Part shown: piece after piece, positions 25,535 through 34,970 of the stretch
Numbering within the stretch: the stretch's first letter is position 1
Layout: each line of letters begins with the position of its first letter
Assembly: GCF_020215705.1 (NCBI RefSeq)
Contig: NZ_JAIWNB010000034.1
Location: forward strand, 1 to 64,000
Direction of reading: 5' to 3'
DNA: 64,000 nucleotides
From: Nonomuraea aurantiaca
GTDB lineage: Bacteria; Actinomycetota; Actinomycetes; Streptosporangiales; Streptosporangiaceae
The notes under the pieces: generated by a model
What the model was told of the DNA's origin: nothing
Database searches by the model: none
Seen by the model: only the letters and a program-made list of their open reading frames with translations
Program-made: the position numbers and the translations under genes

Positions 25535-26091
25535 GTGACGACATGCCTTCCCGGATCCGCAGGAGGATGGCCAGCCGCTATGGGGCCGACCCGTTGCACC
25601 TGCTGGCGCTGCTCGCCTGCTTCGCCCTGGCCGGATACGCCGCGAGTCGTGTCGTCGCCGCGGGCATCTGGATCGGCTTCCTGGTGTGGTTCGTCGGCGC
25701 CGCGATCATCCACGACCTCCTGCTGTACCCGCTGTACGCCCTCGCCGACGTCGCCGCGCAACGGCGGCCGTGGCGTCGCCGCCGGCGACCGTCCGGCACC
25801 CCCACCTGGCCGCCACCGATCAATTACCTGCGCATACCGGTCGCGCTGTCCGGTCTGCTGTTCCTCATCTGGTTCCCCCTCATCCTCCGACTGGCCGAGG
25901 GCAACTACCACCGGTCAACGGCGCTGGACGCGAGCCCGTACCTCGGCCGCTGGCTGCTGGTCACCGGCGTGCTCTTCGCCGGATCCGCACTCGCGTACGC
26001 CATCCGGCTGCGCCGACACAAGGCCGCGGCTGAGCCGCGACGGCCCCGCCTTCGCCCACCGCAAGCCCCGCGATCCTCGCCGAGTGGATGA
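25531..26091 (+). CDS. Membrane protein paired with the molybdopterin oxidoreductase
   Basis: A 186-residue protein with four membrane spans (about 25-45, 47-68, 96-116, 136-156). It starts at ATG 25531 in an ATGA overlap with the oxidoreductase stop, showing the two are translationally coupled. The loop WPPPINYLRIPVALSGLLFL is conserved-looking, and the C-terminus is Arg/Pro-rich. I do not recognise a named family; as the partner of a membrane-bound molybdoenzyme, it may be an electron-transfer or assembly subunit. Confidence 0.65.
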   Translation: MSDDMPSRIRRRMASRYGADPLHLLALLACFALAGYAASRVVAAGIWIGFLVWFVGAAIIHDLLLYPLYALADVAAQRRPWRRRRRPSGTPTWPPPINYLRIPVALSGLLFLIWFPLILRLAEGNYHRSTALDASPYLGRWLLVTGVLFAGSALAYAIRLRRHKAAAEPRRPRLRPPQAPRSSPSG

Positions 26092-26373
26092 GGCGCCCTT
26101 GAGCACCAGGCCGATCAGCGACCACGCCCTGCTGGGGGACTGCCGATCCGCGGCCCTGGTCACCTCCGACGGCTCGGTGGACTGGCTCTGCATGCCGCGC
26201 TTCGACAGCCCATCGATCTTCGCCCGGCTGCTCGACGAGAACGCCGGGCACTGGTCCATCCGGCCCACCCGGCCCACGGAGATCACCCGCAGGTATCTGG
26301 ACGACACCCTGGTGCTGGAGACCACCTTCCGTGGCCCCGACGGAACCGTGGTACTCGTGGACGCCCTCTGTCG
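26084..26373 (+). pseudogene. GH15 (trehalase/glucoamylase-like) N-terminal fragment
   Basis: From GTG 26084 the frame reads ISDHALLGDCRSAALVTSDG, SVDWLCMPRFDSPSIFARLL, AGHWSIRPT and TRRYLDDTLVLETTFRGPDG, the N-terminal beta-sandwich of a GH15 trehalase or glucoamylase. The family needs about 600 residues; here the match ends after about 95 at VDAL. The next bases belong to an unrelated ABC permease fragment. Confidence 0.85.
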
Positions 26374-26502
26374 CCCTTCGCCCCCCAGGTGCCCGGGGGC
26401 GAGGTGAGCGCCGCGCCGCTGCTCTGGTTGACCGCCGTCGCGTTGGCGCTCGTTCTGGCCGGTGTCACCGCCTTCCAGCGGCGCGACCTGGTCGGCAACT
26501 GA
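26374..26502 (+). pseudogene. ABC exporter permease, C-terminal fragment
   Basis: Forty-two codons in the frame shifted from the GH15 fragment: PFAPQVPGGEVSAAPLLWLT, then ALALVLAGVTAFQRRDLVGN and a stop. It matches the end of the intact permease at 33372 ([19 protein letters not shown] and [14 protein letters not shown]). So the end of a second, related exporter gene has been joined to the GH15 fragment. Confidence 0.8.
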
Positions 26503-26582: not shown

Positions 26583-28073
26583 TCAGGGGAGTATCGCGGT
26601 GAGCAACCCACCGGCCTTGCGGACATCGGCGTCCAGCGGGCGGTCGGGATCGACGGGAGGGATCGCCTCGACCAGGGCGTCGAGGAGTGCCGCGCAGCCT
26701 GGGGCCGTGGGGCGGCGGGCGCCGACGTACGCTGCCTGCCGCAGTCCCACCGCCAGCGAGCCGCAGAGCAGGTGCAGCAGGGCGGCCATGTCATAGGCGC
26801 GAAGGGCGGCCTGGGTACCGAACGGCACGACATCCTGGTTGTGCAGGTTGGTCGGCAGGCTCTGCATGCCGGCCGGAACGGCAGCGCGGCGGATCTCGGC
26901 GACGAACGCGGTCGTGGCGAGCTGTACGCCTTGCATCCCGTGTTGGCGGCCGGGCCCGGCGGCGAGCATCGGGGGGAGCCCGCCATTGCGGGCCGGGTCG
27001 ACGAGGAGGTCGAGCTGCCGCTCGGTGAGGTTGCCGAGCTGAGCGGTGACCATCGCCAGGACATCGGCGGCGAACGCGGCCGGCTGCCCGAAGAAGTTAC
27101 CGCCGTGCACCACCAGGTCGTCGTCGGGGAAGAACAGCGGGTTGTCGCTGACGCTGGACAGGTCGGCCTCGACGACACCGTCGACGTACCGCAGGGCGTC
27201 CTCGGCGGCGCCCAGCAGTTGCGGGGAGCAGCGGATGCTGTACGGCTCCTGCAGCGCACGTGTGCGGGTCGGGATGATCCCGGAAAGGGTCTTGCGCATG
27301 CCGTCGGCGACGTCGATCGCGCCGGGATGGCCATAGGCGTCGAGCAGACGCGGGTTGAGGAAGCCCGGGTCGCAGCCGAGCAGATCGACCAGCAGACAGG
27401 TGAGCGCCTGTATCGCGCGGTGGGAGGACCGGATGCTGTCCAGGGCCAGGGCGGTCGCGGCGGTGGTGAGGGAGGTGCCGTTGACGAGCGCGAGGGCATC
27501 CCGGCCGTCGAGCGTCAACGGGGTCAACCCAGCATGGCGCAGCGCCTCGGCGGCGGGCATCCGCCGGCCGTCGACAGACGCCTGTCCCCGGCCACGCAAT
27601 GCCTGGGCGGCATAGGCGAGCGGGATCAGGTCTCCGCTCGCGCCGACCGAACCGTAGCGTGGGATCACCGGAACGAACGTCGTGGCGAACATCGCGGCCA
27701 GCCCGTCGACCACGTGAGCCGACACCCCGGACAGTCCCTGGGCGAGAGACCACACGCGCACGAGAATCGCGGCGCGGCTCACGTCATGGGCCAGATCCGG
27801 CCCCTGCCCGGCACCGAGGTGGGCCAGGGTGTTGTCGCACTGGTCCGCCTCCTCGTCCCGGCCGGCGAACCCGACCAGGGCGCCGAAGCCGGTGGTCGCG
27901 CCGTAGACCGGGCGTTCCTCCTCCTTCAGCACGCCGCGCAGATGGTCACGGCCGCGCTCGACGCGGCCGCGGACGGCCTCGTCGACCACGACGGAGACCG
28001 GTGTCGCGGCGCGGTGCAGGTCGGCGGAGCGCAGCGGGGCGCTGAGGTTGATGGAGCCTTCGACGGCGGGCAT
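26583..28073 (-). CDS. Aromatic amino acid ammonia-lyase/aminomutase (MIO family)
   Basis: A 496-residue member of the HAL/PAL/TAL family. The MIO prosthetic group forms from Ala145-Ser146-Gly147 (YGSVGASGDLIPLAY). Other family marks are the catalytic Tyr57 in VYGATTGFG, LALVNGTSLTTA, SDNPLFFPDDD and the C-terminal helices. The substrate-selecting pair in the NTLAHLGAG stretch is His85-Leu86, as in Rhodobacter tyrosine ammonia-lyase (His89-Leu90), rather than Phe-Leu (PAL) or Ser-His (HAL). This points to tyrosine, giving p-coumarate, or beta-tyrosine if it is an aminomutase. It is divergent from three biosynthetic-looking genes with a 62-bp shared promoter. Confidence 0.9.
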   Translation of the reverse strand: MPAVEGSINLSAPLRSADLHRAATPVSVVVDEAVRGRVERGRDHLRGVLKEEERPVYGATTGFGALVGFAGRDEEADQCDNTLAHLGAGQGPDLAHDVSRAAILVRVWSLAQGLSGVSAHVVDGLAAMFATTFVPVIPRYGSVGASGDLIPLAYAAQALRGRGQASVDGRRMPAAEALRHAGLTPLTLDGRDALALVNGTSLTTAATALALDSIRSSHRAIQALTCLLVDLLGCDPGFLNPRLLDAYGHPGAIDVADGMRKTLSGIIPTRTRALQEPYSIRCSPQLLGAAEDALRYVDGVVEADLSSVSDNPLFFPDDDLVVHGGNFFGQPAAFAADVLAMVTAQLGNLTERQLDLLVDPARNGGLPPMLAAGPGRQHGMQGVQLATTAFVAEIRRAAVPAGMQSLPTNLHNQDVVPFGTQAALRAYDMAALLHLLCGSLAVGLRQAAYVGARRPTAPGCAALLDALVEAIPPVDPDRPLDADVRKAGGLLTAILP

Positions 28074-28093
28074 GCCTGGACCATAGGCGGTGA

Positions 28094-28115
28094 ATTCTCA
28101 GAATCCTCTGAGAAT
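28094..28115. promoter_or_regulatory. Perfect inverted repeat in the divergent promoter
   Basis: ATTCTCAGA and TCTGAGAAT flank ATCC, forming a perfect 9-bp inverted repeat within the 62 bp between the lyase and flavoprotein genes. Position and symmetry suit an operator for a dimeric repressor or activator controlling both directions. No regulator gene lies within the cassette. Confidence 0.7.
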
Positions 28116-28135
28116 CCGTCCGTAGCTTCCGGATC

Positions 28136-29689
28136 ATGGCTCATGACTATTTGATCATCGGGGCCGGACCGGCCGGGCTGCAGCTCGCCGCGCTGCTGGA
28201 ACTGGGCGGTCACGACTATGTCGTCCTGGAACGCGGAGCCGGGCCGGGTACCTTCTTCACCCGGTTCCCACGGCACCGCCAGCTGATCTCCATCAACAAG
28301 GTGCACACCGGGTATGAGGACCCGGAGTTGCGGCTGCGGATGGACTGGAACTCGTTGCTCAGCGACGATCCGGAGCTGCTGTTCACCCGGTACAGCGAGC
28401 TGTACTTCCCGCAGGCCGACGATCTCGTGCGCTACCTGTCCGACTTCGCGTCGGCGACCGGCGTCCGGGTGCACTACGACACCCACGTCTCCCGGATCAG
28501 CCGGGACGACGATGGGTTCACCGCCGTCGACCTCGGTGGACGTTCATGGCGGGGCCGGCGGCTGGTCGTGGCCACCGGCGTCTCCCAGCCGTACATCCCG
28601 CCGATCCCCGGCATCGAGGCCGCAGAACGCTACGACACGTTCGAGACCGACCCGGCGTCCTTCGTCGACCAGCGGGTCCTGGTGATCGGCAAGGGCAACT
28701 CGGGGTTCGAGACCGCCGAGGCACTCATGGACAAGGCCGCGGTCATCCACGTCGCCGGGCCGCACTCCATCAAGATGGCCTGGCAGTCGCACTTCGTCGG
28801 GCACCTACGCGCGGTCAACAACAACTTTCTCGACAGCTACCAGCTGAAGTCCCAGAACTCGGTCCTCGACGGCACGGTGGAAAGCATCGAACGCCGTGAT
28901 GACGGTCGCTTCCGGGTGATGTTCCGCTACGCCCGTACCGTGGAAGCGCTGCGCGAGCTGTTCTACGACCGGGTGATCGTGTGCACCGGTTTCCGGTTCG
29001 ACGCCTCGGCGTTCGACGACAGTTGCCGGCCGGCGCTGGTCATCAACGACCGTTTCCCCGAGCAGACGTCAGCGTATGAGTCGACCACCGTGCCCGGTCT
29101 GTACTTCGCCGGCACGCTCACCCAGCAGCGCGATTTCAAGAAGTCCACGAGCGGGTTCATCCACGGCTTCCGCTATGGGGTGCGTGCGCTCCACCGGATC
29201 CTGGCCACCCGCTACCACGGTGGGACCTGGCCTGCCAGGAAGGTCGAGCCGACCCCGGAGGCGATCAGCGACGCGATCATCGCCCGGGTCAACCGCTCTT
29301 CCGCGCTGTGGCAGCAGTTCGGCGTGCTCGGAGACGTGGTCACCGTTGAGGGCGACACCGCGCTGTACCAGGAGGAGGTCCCGGTGGCGTACGCCGCCGA
29401 CGGCGGCCTCGGCCGTGCCCGGCACACGTTCGTCGTCACCCTGGAGTACGGAAAGGATCACGACGCCGTCGACCCGTTCGACATCTCGATCCGGAGGGTC
29501 GTCGAGAACGACGTCGCCAACGCTCACGACGCGAACTACCTGCACCCGGTGGTGCGGCACTACCGAGAGGGGACGCCGACCGGCGTCCACCACCTCGCCG
29601 AGAACCTGGACAACCAGTGGAACCTGCCGGCGGTGCACCAGCAGCCCCTGGCCGTCTTCGTCAAGGAGTGCCTTGCCGACGCCGGCTGA
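28136..29689 (+). CDS. FOXRED2-like FAD-dependent oxidoreductase
   Basis: A 517-residue flavoprotein. FAD-binding motif IIGAGPAGLQ (residues 7-16); NADPH-binding motif VIGKGNSGFETAE (from 183); and the CTGF motif near 283. The N-terminal third (FFTRFPRHRQLISINKVHTG, DWNSLLSDDPELLFTRYSEL, YFPQADDLVRYL) and KKSTSGFIHGFRYGVRALHR closely follow the FOXRED2 type of two-dinucleotide-binding oxidoreductases. The last 130 residues are an extra domain. It may oxygenate or oxidise the aromatic substrate or an amine; the reaction is unknown. First gene of a tight plus-strand operon. Confidence 0.85.
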   Translation: MAHDYLIIGAGPAGLQLAALLELGGHDYVVLERGAGPGTFFTRFPRHRQLISINKVHTGYEDPELRLRMDWNSLLSDDPELLFTRYSELYFPQADDLVRYLSDFASATGVRVHYDTHVSRISRDDDGFTAVDLGGRSWRGRRLVVATGVSQPYIPPIPGIEAAERYDTFETDPASFVDQRVLVIGKGNSGFETAEALMDKAAVIHVAGPHSIKMAWQSHFVGHLRAVNNNFLDSYQLKSQNSVLDGTVESIERRDDGRFRVMFRYARTVEALRELFYDRVIVCTGFRFDASAFDDSCRPALVINDRFPEQTSAYESTTVPGLYFAGTLTQQRDFKKSTSGFIHGFRYGVRALHRILATRYHGGTWPARKVEPTPEAISDAIIARVNRSSALWQQFGVLGDVVTVEGDTALYQEEVPVAYAADGGLGRARHTFVVTLEYGKDHDAVDPFDISIRRVVENDVANAHDANYLHPVVRHYREGTPTGVHHLAENLDNQWNLPAVHQQPLAVFVKECLADAG

Positions 29690-31136
29690 ACCCTACCCGC
29701 GTTCCATCCTGGACCTCCTTGGCGCGGCCGGGGACCGATCCGTCTTCGAGCATGGTGCCCGTACCGTCACCGGCGCGCAGATGCTCGACCTCGTCCGGCG
29801 GATGGCCACCGGACTGCGCGCGGCGGCCATCGGGCCAGGGGACGGCCTCGCCATGCTGCTGGGCGTCACTGCCGAAGCGTTCGCCGCGATGATCGCCGGC
29901 TACGTCGTGGGGGCTCGGGTCGTCGGTGTGCGGCCCGGGCTGTCCGACGGCCAACTGCGCCACGTGCTCCACCAGGACGTCGCCGCGGTCGTGACCGACG
30001 CGGCCACCGGGCCGGAGCACGCTCCGCGCACCCTGACCGTCTCCGAGCTGCTGGCCGCACCCGACGAGGACGGTCCGCTGCACCTGTCCGGCCACCCGCA
30101 CGACGTCGCCCGGCTCGTCTACACCAGCGGCAGCACCGGCACACCAAAGGCATGCGCACAGACCTACGCCGCGCTGAACGCGGCGTGGACGGCCCGCCCG
30201 GCGGCGTGGCCGCCGGCGATCCGAGAACTGGCGTCCCGCCTGCGGCGCTACCTCGTATTCGGGTCGCTGAGCAGCCAAGTGATGATGGAGTACGGTGTCC
30301 TCACCCTTGCCGCGGGCGGGACCATGGTCGTCGCCGACCCGCCCGTGTTTCCCGACGCGATCACCAGACATCGGGCGTCCGCCAGCGTCATCACCGTGCC
30401 CCGCCTGTACAAACTCGTCGCCGCGCAGCGTAGCGCTCCGGCCGACCTGAGCAGCCTGCGGGCGCTCATGGTGTCCGGGTCACCGCTGGAGGCGTCCCGG
30501 CTCCGCGAAGCACTCGATGTGCTCGGCCCGATCGTGTTCCAGGGCTACGGGCAGAGCGAGACCGGCACGATCTCCATGGCCAGGCCGTCAGATGTCGCCC
30601 CTTCGGTCGGGTTCCCGCCCGACGTCATCGACGTCGTGATCCGGGACGCGGACGGCAGGCCCGTCCCGCCCGGTGTCGACGGCGAGCTGTACGTCCGCAC
30701 ACCCTCCCAGGCCATCGGGTACTGGGCCGAACCGACGCAGACCGCGGAGGTGTTCATCGACGGGTGGGTGCGTACCCGGGACCTGGGCCACTTCGACCGG
30801 GACGGGCGACTGTACCTGGCCGGGCGGACGCGGGACGTCATCATCGTCAACGCGAACCTCTACTACGCCGGTCCGATCGAGCGGGTCCTGGCCGCTTCCC
30901 CTGACATCGCGGAGGCGTACGTGATCGGCGCCCCGGACGAGGACACCGGCGAGGCGGTGCACGCATTCGTGGTACCAGTGGCGGGCCGGGCCCTCGACCT
31001 CGCCTCGCTGCGGACACTGGTCAGCGAGCGACTCGGTGACGCATGCGTACCGGCGACCATCACCGTCATCGACGAGGCGCCGACGGCGCCGAACGGCAAA
31101 CCGGACAAGCGCCTCCTGATGAGGAGCGGGTACTGA
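29673..31136 (+). CDS. Adenylate-forming ligase (ANL superfamily)
   Basis: A 487-residue acyl/aryl-AMP ligase. Core motifs: YTSGSTGTPK (150-159, P-loop), FQGYGQSETG (A5), RTRDLGHFDRDGRLYLAGR with the hinge, and the C-terminal PNGKPDKRLL with the catalytic Lys. The start is inferred to be TTG 29673, with AAGGAG upstream and a 17-bp overlap with the flavoprotein gene. Expected substrate is a carboxylic acid made by the lyase (a cinnamate or beta-tyrosine), to be loaded on CoA or another acceptor. No carrier protein or NRPS lies nearby, so CoA or an amine acceptor is favoured. Confidence 0.88.
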   Translation: MPTPAEPYPRSILDLLGAAGDRSVFEHGARTVTGAQMLDLVRRMATGLRAAAIGPGDGLAMLLGVTAEAFAAMIAGYVVGARVVGVRPGLSDGQLRHVLHQDVAAVVTDAATGPEHAPRTLTVSELLAAPDEDGPLHLSGHPHDVARLVYTSGSTGTPKACAQTYAALNAAWTARPAAWPPAIRELASRLRRYLVFGSLSSQVMMEYGVLTLAAGGTMVVADPPVFPDAITRHRASASVITVPRLYKLVAAQRSAPADLSSLRALMVSGSPLEASRLREALDVLGPIVFQGYGQSETGTISMARPSDVAPSVGFPPDVIDVVIRDADGRPVPPGVDGELYVRTPSQAIGYWAEPTQTAEVFIDGWVRTRDLGHFDRDGRLYLAGRTRDVIIVNANLYYAGPIERVLAASPDIAEAYVIGAPDEDTGEAVHAFVVPVAGRALDLASLRTLVSERLGDACVPATITVIDEAPTAPNGKPDKRLLMRSGY

Positions 31137-31137
31137 C

Positions 31138-32760
31138 GTGAGATCTGCCTCGTACGAACATCCTTTGGCGTTCTGGTCCGGCGTAACGATCACCACGGTC
31201 GGCGTGCTGTTACAGCTGCCGAGCTACTTCATGGCCCATGACATGCGCTATCACCTTGCCGGCATGCCCGTGACGACCGAGATGGCCGTCGGCATGGTCC
31301 TGCTGTTCATCGGCGTCGGCATCACCACCTACAGCCTGTTCCCGAAGTCCCGAGGCAGCCGGCCCGAGCTGAGCAAGGTGAGCATCACCCCTCTCGACGA
31401 CGCGCCGATCAGGCCCGCCCACATCGGGCTGCTCCTGGTCATGGCGGCCGCCATCACGATCGACGTGATGAAACCGACCGCCTTCGCGTTCCTCGCGCCC
31501 GGCGCCGCGGCGGAGTACGGGCTGCGCGGACCGCTGAACCCGACGGCGGACGCGCTGCCGATCGGCCTCTACCCGCTGGCCGGCATCTCCGGAACCATGA
31601 TCGGCTCGTTCATCTGGGGATGGCTGGGCGATCGCATCGGCCGACGGGCGTCCATCCTGCTGGCGGCGATCATCTTCATCGCGACGTCGACGTGCGGCAC
31701 CATGCCCGAGTTCTGGATGAACCTGATCACATGCTTCGTCATGGGTCTCGGCGTCGGCGGCATGCTGCCCCTCACCTTCGTGCTGCTCTCGGAGACGGTA
31801 CCGAGGAGACATCGCGGCTGGATGATCGTGCTCATCGGCAGCGACATCGCCGGCGCCTACATCATCGTGAGCTGGCTGGCCTCCACCTGGGCCGCGCCGG
31901 ACCAGCTCGGCTGGCGCCTGCTGTGGCTGATCGGCCTTCCCACCGGTCTCATCCTGCTGCTGCTGAACCGCTGGATCCCGGAGTCGCCGCGCTTCCTGAT
32001 CAAGCAGGGCCGCGATGAGGAGGCCCAGTCCGTCATGCGCAAATACGGCGCCACCATCGTCGAGACGCCGTCCGAGCTCGCCGTCGAGCAGAACCTGGAA
32101 CGCGGCTCCCGGCTGGCGTTCAGCAAGCCGTTCCTCGGCCTGACCGTCGTCGTCGTCCTGCTGGCCCTGAGCATCGGCACCACCCAGTACGGCTTCCAGC
32201 AGTGGATGCCGTCCAACCTCCAGCGGCTCGGCTTCTCCGAGGTGAACGCCAGCGAGATCCTCCGTAACGCCGCGATCATCGGATTCCCGTTCAGCCTGCC
32301 GATCGCGCTGCTGTACGGATTCTGGAGCAGCAAGAAGACCATCATCCTCGTGACCGCGGTGATGGGCGGCTCCCTCGCCACCTTCGCGTTGCTGGGCGAT
32401 CAGGTGGCCGCCAACCGCACTCTGCTGTACGTCCTGCTCGTTGTGCCGGTATGGGGAATCAGCATCCTGAACGCCGTGCTCGCCGCCTACACCGCGGAGA
32501 TCTATCCGACCGTGATCCGCGCCCGCACCAGCGGTCTGTCCGCTGGAGCGACCAAGGCCGGTGGCGTGCTGATCCTGGCCCTGGTGGTCACCGCCGTCGC
32601 GATCCCTTCCGTACGAGTGACCGCCGCTGTCGGCGTCATCCCGATGGCCCTGGCCATGATCGCCCTCATCGCCTTCGGCCCGGAAACCCGGCACAAGCAA
32701 CTCGAACGCATCACGGCCGAGGAGCTCATGTCGTCCTCCCGACGATCCGGCGAATTGTAG
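31138..32760 (+). CDS. MFS transporter with two extra N-terminal spans
   Basis: A 540-residue major facilitator protein. After two extra hydrophobic segments (about 12-30 and 45-68) comes a 12-span MFS core; the signature after span 2 is GWLGDRIGRRASILL and the equivalent in the second half is LSAGATKAGG-like. WIPESPRFLIKQGR is the sugar/aromatic-acid porter mark. The GTG start is one base after the ligase stop, so it belongs to the same operon. It could import the aromatic substrate or export the product. Confidence 0.87.
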   Translation: MRSASYEHPLAFWSGVTITTVGVLLQLPSYFMAHDMRYHLAGMPVTTEMAVGMVLLFIGVGITTYSLFPKSRGSRPELSKVSITPLDDAPIRPAHIGLLLVMAAAITIDVMKPTAFAFLAPGAAAEYGLRGPLNPTADALPIGLYPLAGISGTMIGSFIWGWLGDRIGRRASILLAAIIFIATSTCGTMPEFWMNLITCFVMGLGVGGMLPLTFVLLSETVPRRHRGWMIVLIGSDIAGAYIIVSWLASTWAAPDQLGWRLLWLIGLPTGLILLLLNRWIPESPRFLIKQGRDEEAQSVMRKYGATIVETPSELAVEQNLERGSRLAFSKPFLGLTVVVVLLALSIGTTQYGFQQWMPSNLQRLGFSEVNASEILRNAAIIGFPFSLPIALLYGFWSSKKTIILVTAVMGGSLATFALLGDQVAANRTLLYVLLVVPVWGISILNAVLAAYTAEIYPTVIRARTSGLSAGATKAGGVLILALVVTAVAIPSVRVTAAVGVIPMALAMIALIAFGPETRHKQLERITAEELMSSSRRSGEL

Positions 32761-32876: not shown

Positions 32877-33359
32877 CTACGGCCGCGTTCTTGATCCAGC
32901 GTCCCCAACGAGGACTGCGCGAGAACTGTGTAGCGATGACCTTCCCGGACGGGAGAGCCCCATCTGGACGTCGGTTCTCTTGCGCTCGGAGGCGTTGGCC
33001 ACGAGTAGTTGCGCGCCCAGGAGTGTTCCGCCCAGGCCGAGGAACGTCCGGACTGTCTCCAGCGCGAGGCGAGGCCGTACCGTCGCCTCCAGGTAGTCGT
33101 CGGTCTCCGAGGGCAGTGCGTCGCGTGGAGCGGTGCGGGCGAACCGTACGAGCAGGATCGCCGCTCCGAGCAGTGCCGCGCTCAGGGCGATACCTGTCGG
33201 CGGGCCGAGACCGTACAGCAGGGCGATGACGATGACGACGACGATGACGGGTGGGATGCCGAGCCGCTCGGCCGGCCGTCCGGAGCCCACGACCAGACGG
33301 TCGGCGGCCAGGGCGAGCACCGCCAGGCCGGCCACGCTGAGAATCGCCAGAGTCAGCAC
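32877..33359 (-). pseudogene. Sodium/calcium antiporter remnant fused to a DUF2637 gene end
   Basis: The first 124 codons keep pieces of a CaxA-type antiporter: ADRLVVGSGRPAERLG and PRLALETVRTFLGLGGTLLG, but the conserved acidic helix (GTSxPE) is missing, so there is an internal deletion. From about 32990 the frame passes out of register into the 101-bp copy of the DUF2637 3' end (32885-32985) and stops. This is a junction between two unrelated broken genes. Confidence 0.75.
32885..32985. repeat. Dispersed repeat, copy 2 (3' end of a DUF2637 gene)
   Basis: About 93% identical by eye to 664-764 and in the same orientation. In the proper frame it still encodes QENRRPDGALPSGKVIATQF and SRSPRWGRWIKN. 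The upstream part of the gene is missing. Confidence 0.85.
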
Positions 33360-33371
33360 CGCAGGCCCCCG

Positions 33372-34970
33372 TCAGTCGCCGCTCAGGTCGCGGCGGCCGA
33401 ACGCGGCGATCCCGGCCAGGGCGAGCAGCGCCGCGACTCCGGCCAGCCAGACGAGCGGCACGGCGCTGAACTGGCCACCGGGGACCTGCGGGAGGTGGAA
33501 GTAGGGCGAGATGGCGCGGACGCGTTCGTCGATCTGCAGCAGCTGGCCCAGCTGTCCGAGGAGCACGAAGGTCACCAGCGCCGCCCACGTGAGCGCTGTG
33601 AGCTTGGGCAGCGCGCCGAACAGCAGCACCGCCAGCCCCGCCAGCACCCACACCGCCGGCACCTGGACCAGGGCCGCACCCAGGATGCGTACCGCTTCGG
33701 TGAGGGGTTGCCCGGTCCGCAGCCCATGCGTGAGCCCCGCGGCGAAACCGGTGACGGCGAGGATCACGGCGCTGCCGAGCAGCGCGAACGCCAGGTGGCC
33801 GGCCAGCCACCGCCATCGCGGCACGGCGGTGGACAGCACCGGTTCGGCGCGCGCCGCGGCCTCCTCGGTCCGCGACCGCAGCGCGGCCTGCACGGCGTAG
33901 CCTCCGGCGACCACTCCACACAGGCCCAGTTCGGTGGCGAAGAAGGTGTCCACCAGCGTGTCCCCGCCGCCCACCATGGAGATCAGTTCGGCGATCCGCG
34001 GGTTGTCGCTCACGATGTCGCGCATGCTTTCGGCCAGTGTCCCGAACACGGCACCGGCCACGGCGAAGCCGATCGTCCAGGCGAGCAGCGCGCCGCGGTG
34101 CAGCCGCCAGGCCAGGGCGAGGGGGCTGCGCAGGGAGTGGGCGGCGTTCGCGGGGCCGCTTCGTGGCGCCATCATCCCGGCTCCGAGGTCGCGCCGCCGT
34201 GCCAGCAGGCCGGACGCGCCCAGCAGGAGGAGGCCGGCGACCGCGATCAAAGCCGGCACCCACCAGCGCTCCCCGGCGAACGGGCGCAGGCGCTGCGCCC
34301 ACCCCAGCGGGGACAGCCATGACACCGCCTCGACGTCGGCGGCGTCACCTGCCGCCCGTACCAGGAAGCACAGTGCCAGGGCGGAGCACGCGATGGCGTT
34401 GGCGGTCCGTGCGCCCTCCGTCAACTGCGCGGCCAGCACGGACAGGCCGGTGAACACCCAGCCCACCCCGGCGATCGCCAGACCGAGAGCGAGCGAACCA
34501 GCAGCGGGGAGCCCCTGCGCGGATAGGCCGAGGCCGATGAGCAGGCCGGTGGCGAGGTTCGCCAGGCTCGCGACGAGCACCGCGGCGGCGGGCAGCGCAT
34601 GGCGGCCGACCGCCCCCGCGCCGATGAGCTCCGCTCTCCCGCTCTCCTCCTCCGCCCGGGTGTGCCGGGTGACCAGCAGGATGCTCATCAAGGCGGTCAG
34701 GACGGCGGCGATGGTGGTCGCTCGCCAGGCAATCAGGCCGCCCACAGACGTGGGGTCGAACACCGGCCCGGTCAGGGCGCGCATCGCCGGATTGCCGCTG
34801 ATCATGGCTCCCAGTGCGAGGCGCTGCGCTGGATCGGCGTACACCGACGTGATCGCCGAAGCGATGGCGGAAACCACCCCGCCGATCGCCACGACCCAGA
34901 CCGGAAGTAGCAGGCGATCACGGCGCAGCACAAGCCGAACCAGCAGGCCGGTGCCGGCGAAGGCGGTCAT
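33372..34970 (-). CDS. ABC-2 type exporter permease (antibiotic-exporter-like)
   Basis: A 532-residue membrane protein from ATG 34970 with about 12 spans in two similar halves; the second begins near [20 protein letters not shown]. It resembles the large permeases of polyketide-antibiotic exporters (tetronasin type). Typical features: [20 protein letters not shown] in the first cytoplasmic loop, and [19 protein letters not shown] as its repeat, and the end [14 protein letters not shown]. The start overlaps the ATPase stop (ATGA), so both subunits are made together. Substrate unknown; it may protect against or secrete a hydrophobic compound. Confidence 0.85.

Follow-up and report, generated by a model that had tools for sequence, protein, structure and literature searches.

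The locus at positions 26583..32760 of the window, by which we mean the whole stretch of 64,000 nucleotides analysed from Nonomuraea aurantiaca (contig NZ_JAIWNB010000034.1), raises the question of what four intact genes for a lyase, a flavoprotein, a ligase and a transporter make together, and whether they are a pathway in their own right, as a preliminary description of this DNA had proposed. The four open reading frames (ORFs) were confirmed at these positions as a 4-methylideneimidazole-5-one (MIO) lyase, a FAD/NAD(P)H flavoprotein (FMO1), an adenylating ligase of the ANL superfamily and a major facilitator superfamily (MFS) transporter. Our analysis indicates that the window is probably home to the satellite half of a biosynthetic cluster which has been split and whose product would be a small molecule derived from tyrosine, with activation of p-coumarate as the likeliest chemistry; the chemistry rests on knowledge of the protein families, the split and the shared motif on sequence.

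The core of the locus is a trio. The lyase (26583..28073, minus strand, 496 aa; PF00221 Lyase_aromatic, 1.7e-132, 442.9 bits) is divergent from FMO1 (28136..29689, plus strand, 517 aa; Pyr_redox_3, 6e-45), which is followed by the ligase (29673..31136, plus strand; PF00501 AMP-binding, 3e-53, and PF13193 AMP-binding_C), whose start is probably a TTG codon at 29673 placed behind AAGGAG and overlapping the flavoprotein stop. When FMO1 was searched against 345 genomes of the order, the own genome included (E<=1e-30), matches were observed in 125 genomes, 16 of them (again with the own genome) at 84-100% identity, the next groups of flavoproteins listed lying at 55-64% and 42-48%. The trio was kept in the same arrangement in 16/16 genomes with a close FMO1. 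A search with the lyase (E<=1e-120) returned 23/345 genomes, the same 16 at 85-100% and a further seven at 52-60%. The flanks of the trio are partly common within one genus (g30) and within two pairs of Nonomuraea loci (L035/L036 and L048/L049). They otherwise mostly differ from genome to genome, which fits a unit that moves or persists in different places. Of the idea of an acquired pathway, a biosynthetic set occurring at varying positions is upheld, and the absence of a nonribosomal peptide synthetase (NRPS) or polyketide synthase (PKS) also holds for the conserved gene set. Carriage on plasmids was considered and rejected: among 52 records of a plasmid collection one covered at least 80% of the query, and this was an FMO2-like place (61%; FMO2 is described below) in a chromosome-sized record of N. 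gerenzanensis, unannotated there.

The MFS gene (31138..32760, plus strand; Sugar_tr 2.3e-32, MFS_1 1.1e-27) does not belong to this core. It adjoins the trio only in the window, and the gene maps of the other 15 trio genomes placed no relative next to the ligase. In a comparison which scored the four best candidates per genome, relatives at E<=1e-60 were found in 3/16 trio genomes including the own one. The nearest relative (86%) was in a genome without the trio, among other genes, and in a different genus of the order five genomes have relatives at 38-41% no more than 2.5 kb from FMO2. The window transporter was therefore probably recruited locally, and it appears to be of the same broad family as the transporters of related clusters. 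A four-gene set as the unit was rejected on these grounds. Of the three-gene operon first described, FMO1, ligase and MFS genes are all present, but the last falls outside the conserved set; likewise, the expected co-occurrence of all four families elsewhere was observed for lyase, FMO1 and ligase (in the 16 genomes and in most of the 80 loci described below) but not for the transporter, so that the objection that the genes never occur jointly in other genomes fails for three of them.

A second part was found elsewhere in the own genome, at C44:116268, where a sulfotransferase gene pointing left is followed by rightward genes for a second ligase, FMO2 (a second flavoprotein of the same family), an oxidase dependent on flavin mononucleotide (FMN), a cytochrome P450, an antiporter, a regulator and a kinase, the gene families being named on a relative, L055. 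FMO2, P450, antiporter, regulator and kinase occur in the same order in 16/16 trio genomes. The FMN oxidase was not called in G145, nor the second ligase in G158 and G161, and the sulfotransferase was called in 7/16. FMO2, at 55-64% identity, is present in 74/345 genomes, and its presence in 16/16 trio genomes has a hypergeometric probability of 5e-12, ignoring kinship. A similar split was seen in Virgisporangium, which belongs to another order: there the contig that carries the trio is separate from the one with FMO2, antiporter, FMN oxidase and P450.

In other actinobacteria the trio has its place in a larger cluster. A collection of species was scanned with an alignment of 14/16 trio flavoproteins, giving 92 relatives of which the best 80 (L068-L147) were used; since 11/80 of these genomes were also in the 345-genome set, about 85 species were in view. 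Flavoproteins were assigned to FMO1 or FMO2 by a FastTree phylogeny of 174 sequences, assignment by best match having proved misleading. Genes outside the window were called with a codon-usage script, so that starts and short or missing genes are rough, and because several loci were cut by contig ends or by the limits of the fetched stretch, absences among the 80 loci are not proof. The lyase was present in 79 of the 80, FMO1 in 73, the ligase in 75 and FMO2 in 65. In 79 the lyase was divergent from a flavoprotein (FMO1 in 50, FMO2 in 29), and tandem pairs were formed by FMO1 and ligase (72), by FMO2 and FMN oxidase (65) and by FMN oxidase and P450 (63); an antiporter was called in 45, an MFS transporter in 10, a regulator in 37 and a kinase in 42. 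Pfam analysis of sample clusters identified the neighbours of FMO2 as an FMN-dependent 2-hydroxyacid oxidase, a divergent P450, a Na/H antiporter, an OmpR-type response regulator and a histidine kinase. Among the hosts are Nonomuraea, Microbispora, Actinomadura, Saccharothrix, Lentzea, Actinoplanes, Micromonospora and Streptomyces, and in the last five of these genera the two parts are joined in a single cluster. Rather than holding a complete pathway, as had been suggested, the cassette is thus part of an 8-9-gene cluster which has been divided in this genus and its relatives. The protein distances of lyase, FMO1 and ligase increase in parallel (Spearman 0.82-0.84; 69 rows, window included), and in three trees the Saccharothrix coeruleofusca locus falls with the window's clade. 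A search of open-licence papers listed none that describes the cluster in its title or the opening of its abstract. The cluster P450 (L051:6747-8105; on C44 in the own genome) is very divergent, with one C-terminal stretch matching solved P450s (best E 3e-7), and by eye its consensus (88 rows) seems to be without the acid-Thr pair that is usual in the I-helix.

A related motif was observed at both loci. The gap between lyase and FMO1 is 62 bp and contains, within the divergent promoter region, an operator-like palindrome, TCTCAGA-ATCC-TCTGAGA (28096..28113, unstranded). The palindrome was found within two mismatches in 79/80 divergent lyase/flavoprotein regions, which came from 79 loci and the window and were extended by 150 bases at each end; 24 were exact, 51 had one mismatch and four had two, and the single exception was Virgisporangium. 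Among random 380-base stretches of the same loci, which may contain the site itself, 113/4000 reached this level. In the own genome (11.85 Mb) an exact match was present only at the window site, and there were six more with two mismatches, one of which, at C44:117884, lies in a short gap upstream of the second-locus FMO2. The pattern run backwards as a control gave three sites in the same genome, so that stray sites with two mismatches are expected and it is the position of a site that counts. The form upstream of FMO2 is rather a direct repeat, TCTGA-N6-TCTGA, at most about 120 bases from the called FMO2 start, and was present in 16/16 second loci of trio genomes and 10/13 others; one of the three remaining loci has the exact palindrome. 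A spacing of one helical turn between half-sites is compatible with a regulator of the OmpR type, and the second locus encodes one.

The lyase is likely to act on tyrosine. Its best sequence match in the PDB was 2o6y (8e-70, 239 bits), listed as a putative histidine ammonia-lyase, which we take to be RsTAL, the tyrosine ammonia-lyase of Rhodobacter. The MIO site, His89/Leu90, the Tyr and the Asn-Gln-Asp of this enzyme align with the window lyase, though it is only the best of several graded matches. The His-Leu pair governs selectivity for tyrosine, and Glu is typical of histidine ammonia-lyase (HAL) at a position where the window lyase has Gln; the earlier assignment as a tyrosine lyase is in this respect supported. 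The MIO-forming A-S-G, the His-Leu pair, NTLAHL and NQD were kept in the window and in 75/75 examined loci (79 have the lyase). Since it scored below the cut-offs of all eight matching NCBIfam lyase and mutase models, the window lyase is probably a subfamily of its own. A comparable use of an actinobacterial tyrosine lyase to feed a small aromatic product is provided by BagA/FevW of the bagremycin/ferroverdin clusters (model NF041222), but the window lyase reached 225 bits against a cut-off of 1000 for that model, and those clusters are not known to contain an FMO1/FMO2 pair.

By sequence the closest matches of the ligase are amide bond synthetases, and yet it forms a divergent subfamily. The best PDB matches were 6sq8 and 6h1b (8e-66), which we take to be McbA of marinacarboline biosynthesis, and then 8pyy (4e-54), presumably ShABS, both amide bond synthetases. 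The window protein shares with McbA its ANL sequence, the lysine of a C-terminal GKPDK and an A8 motif departing from G-G, but differs from it in motif A7, where T-R-D replaces T-G-D. This T-R-D was present in 98/98 sequences (the window, 74/74 orthologues and 23/23 second-locus ligases), while T-G-D was seen in two ANL proteins from the loci that are unrelated to it and in three of the four next-best ANL relatives of the own genome, the remaining one having S-G-D. In motif A8, G-G was found in 3/4 own-genome relatives; the window ligase has N-A, every ligase, those of the second locus included, has x-A, and McbA has E-A. The closest relative in the own genome is the second-locus ligase (50%), followed by one at 35%. 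Searches of phage protein families at E<=1e-10 gave two of unknown function. Relevant papers are PMC6282839 and PMC10804368, and the latter names E400, Y402 and W246 as amine-tunnel residues common to McbA and ShABS. By its sequence the window protein should act in the manner of an ANL ligase, and possibly in that of an amide synthetase, but we have not assigned it to the amide synthetases.

In FMO1 the Pyr_redox_3 domain spans residues 6-326 of 517 and is followed by a C-terminal part of about 190 residues; the protein has the two dinucleotide-binding motifs (GAGPAG and GKGNSG) expected of class B flavoprotein monooxygenases. Searches of PDB sequences gave weak matches to monooxygenases only, and no phage protein family was found at E<=1e-10. 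It belongs to a clade of its own in the tree of 174 flavoproteins (74 sequences with the window, support 0.977). The name FOXRED2-like, which had been applied to it, is used here as a presumed label. A third group of flavoproteins (45-47%, L062-L066) adjoins genes of the carboxymuconolactone-decarboxylase/AhpD type, with a SnoaL-like gene in 3/5, which gives the family a further, uncharacterised setting.

If the window is indeed the satellite half of a split cluster, the lyase would deaminate L-tyrosine to p-coumarate, and the ligase would adenylate p-coumarate or a derivative of it and pass the acyl group to an amine or to coenzyme A (CoA), with a slight preference for an amine. Oxidation of the conjugate or its partner would fall to FMO1, FMO2, the FMN oxidase and the P450. 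The trio would thereby supply and couple the p-coumarate unit, with oxidation by FMO1, while the second locus would provide further oxidations, export and control; the MFS protein may export the product. The OmpR-type regulator of the second locus is predicted to bind the TCTGA half-sites at both loci and so to switch both together.

Several observations weigh against this reading. Among the genomes with FMO2, 58/74 show no trio, and the link between trio and FMO2 therefore runs one way. The FMO1 gene is missing from 7/80 loci, all from Streptomyces (L127, L132, L136, L139, L144, L145 and L147; a contig end truncates L136, L144, L145 and L147), and from the whole of one of these genomes (G347); because a search of the L127 genome at E<=1e-60 yielded a single flavoprotein of the family, namely FMO2, FMO1 may be dispensable. 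In the Virgisporangium trio (L097:8949) the half-sites are separated by 15 bases rather than 4, an increase of roughly one helical turn, and no such site was found directly upstream of FMO2 in that split genome. In an alignment with the numbering matched by eye, E400, Y402 and W246 of McbA are replaced in the window ligase by N, N and R, and amide formation is therefore not established; a feruloyl-CoA synthetase at 5e-52 is moreover not much below the top amide-synthetase matches. One could propose that the trio is a self-contained pathway to a p-coumarate conjugate and the second locus a paralogous cluster sharing a duplicated flavoprotein and ligase. The FMO2 genomes without the trio would agree with this, and so would the second ligase, which adjoins FMO2 in 24/29 second-type loci examined (13 of them from the 58 other FMO2 genomes), so that each part can stand alone. 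We nevertheless regard this proposal as unlikely, given that the two parts are one cluster in the five genera named above, that the second part accompanies the trio in every one of the 16 genomes with related motifs at both places, and that no second ligase was called in G158 and G161.

The chemistry of the split cluster has rivals as well. Active-site residues alone cannot tell a lyase from a mutase, and the enzyme could be a tyrosine 2,3-aminomutase whose beta-tyrosine is activated by the ligase, as the fold and the tyrosine-binding residues are common to both kinds of enzyme and the aminomutase model TIGR03832 gave 274.8 bits; the cut-off of that model, 501, was however missed, and the aminomutase entries of the PDB scored 210-212 bits or less where RsTAL had 239, so that an aminomutase is improbable. 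Ordinary histidine catabolism among unrelated neighbours, an objection raised at the outset, is not borne out and must be considered extremely improbable: the HutH models scored highest in NCBIfam (363.5 and 355.2 bits), yet under their cut-offs of 524 and 539 (539.15), Gln stands in place of the HAL Glu, the neighbours are conserved and biosynthetic, and the own genome contains three further MIO lyases, one of which (C44:99041) reached 610.7 bits with the general Pfam model compared with 442.9 for the window lyase. A more serious competitor, which we still hold to be less probable than not, is that the ligase makes aryl-CoA and that p-coumaroyl-CoA is the intermediate that is oxidised. Acyl-CoA synthetases were its best matches in NCBIfam, all below cut-off, and the loss of the McbA tunnel residues and the match to feruloyl-CoA synthetase point the same way, but the top structures are taken to be amide bond synthetases, and the A8 G-G is replaced by N-A or x-A in a manner similar to the E-A of McbA. 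Finally, the ligase could be a nitrite-using diazotase as in the cma and ava clusters, which are likewise actinobacterial, NRPS-free routes to p-coumarate-type acids with ANL enzymes (PMC10777205). The gene table of those clusters, however, lists AHBA, type II PKS and nitrous acid genes in place of such a lyase, and the cma set (AHBA synthase, type II PKS and nitrosuccinate genes) was not among the conserved genes that we identified, although no search was aimed at those families; a diazotase is accordingly very unlikely.

Taking these points together with the split cluster that we prefer, we tentatively suggest, as a proposal that could well fail, that a new PKS- and NRPS-free cluster family in about 85 actinobacterial species makes a tyrosine-derived conjugate by means of the divergent T-R-D ligase and paired FOXRED2-type flavoproteins, and that the cluster has become divided in Nonomuraea, Microbispora and their kin, with a response-regulator operator common to both halves coordinating them. 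If this is true, the FOXRED2-type flavoprotein family gains a biosynthetic role. What had been an odd four-gene cassette becomes a defined cluster family with named hosts, and it points to a ligase subfamily that is unstudied and a flavoprotein family that is little studied in natural-product biosynthesis. It also offers a case of one cluster divided over two loci, apparently under one regulator, in which cluster finders that rely on proximity would not connect the two halves.

The surroundings of the locus agree with the first description of four intact genes between broken ones, the left neighbour being truncated and the right one a probable remnant. To the left, a GH15/trehalase-like gene (26084..26407, plus strand; TREH_N fragment) retains 96 residues from a shared motif to the stop, where two relatives keep 594 and 600; the match to a third relative (L179) spans 42 residues only. 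Behind it, at 26408-26500, what appears by eye to be the 3' end of an ABC permease gene resembles the tail of the intact permease at 33372-34970, and the left border of the trio looks as if two rearrangements had met there. To the right, a 160-aa ORF (32877..33359, minus strand) had no match in Pfam and shows at most some resemblance to cation exchangers; beyond it are an intact ABC ATPase and an intact permease-like partner. About 3 kb to the left of the trio, an ORF at 21960-23339 matches the Recombinase and Phage_integrase models.

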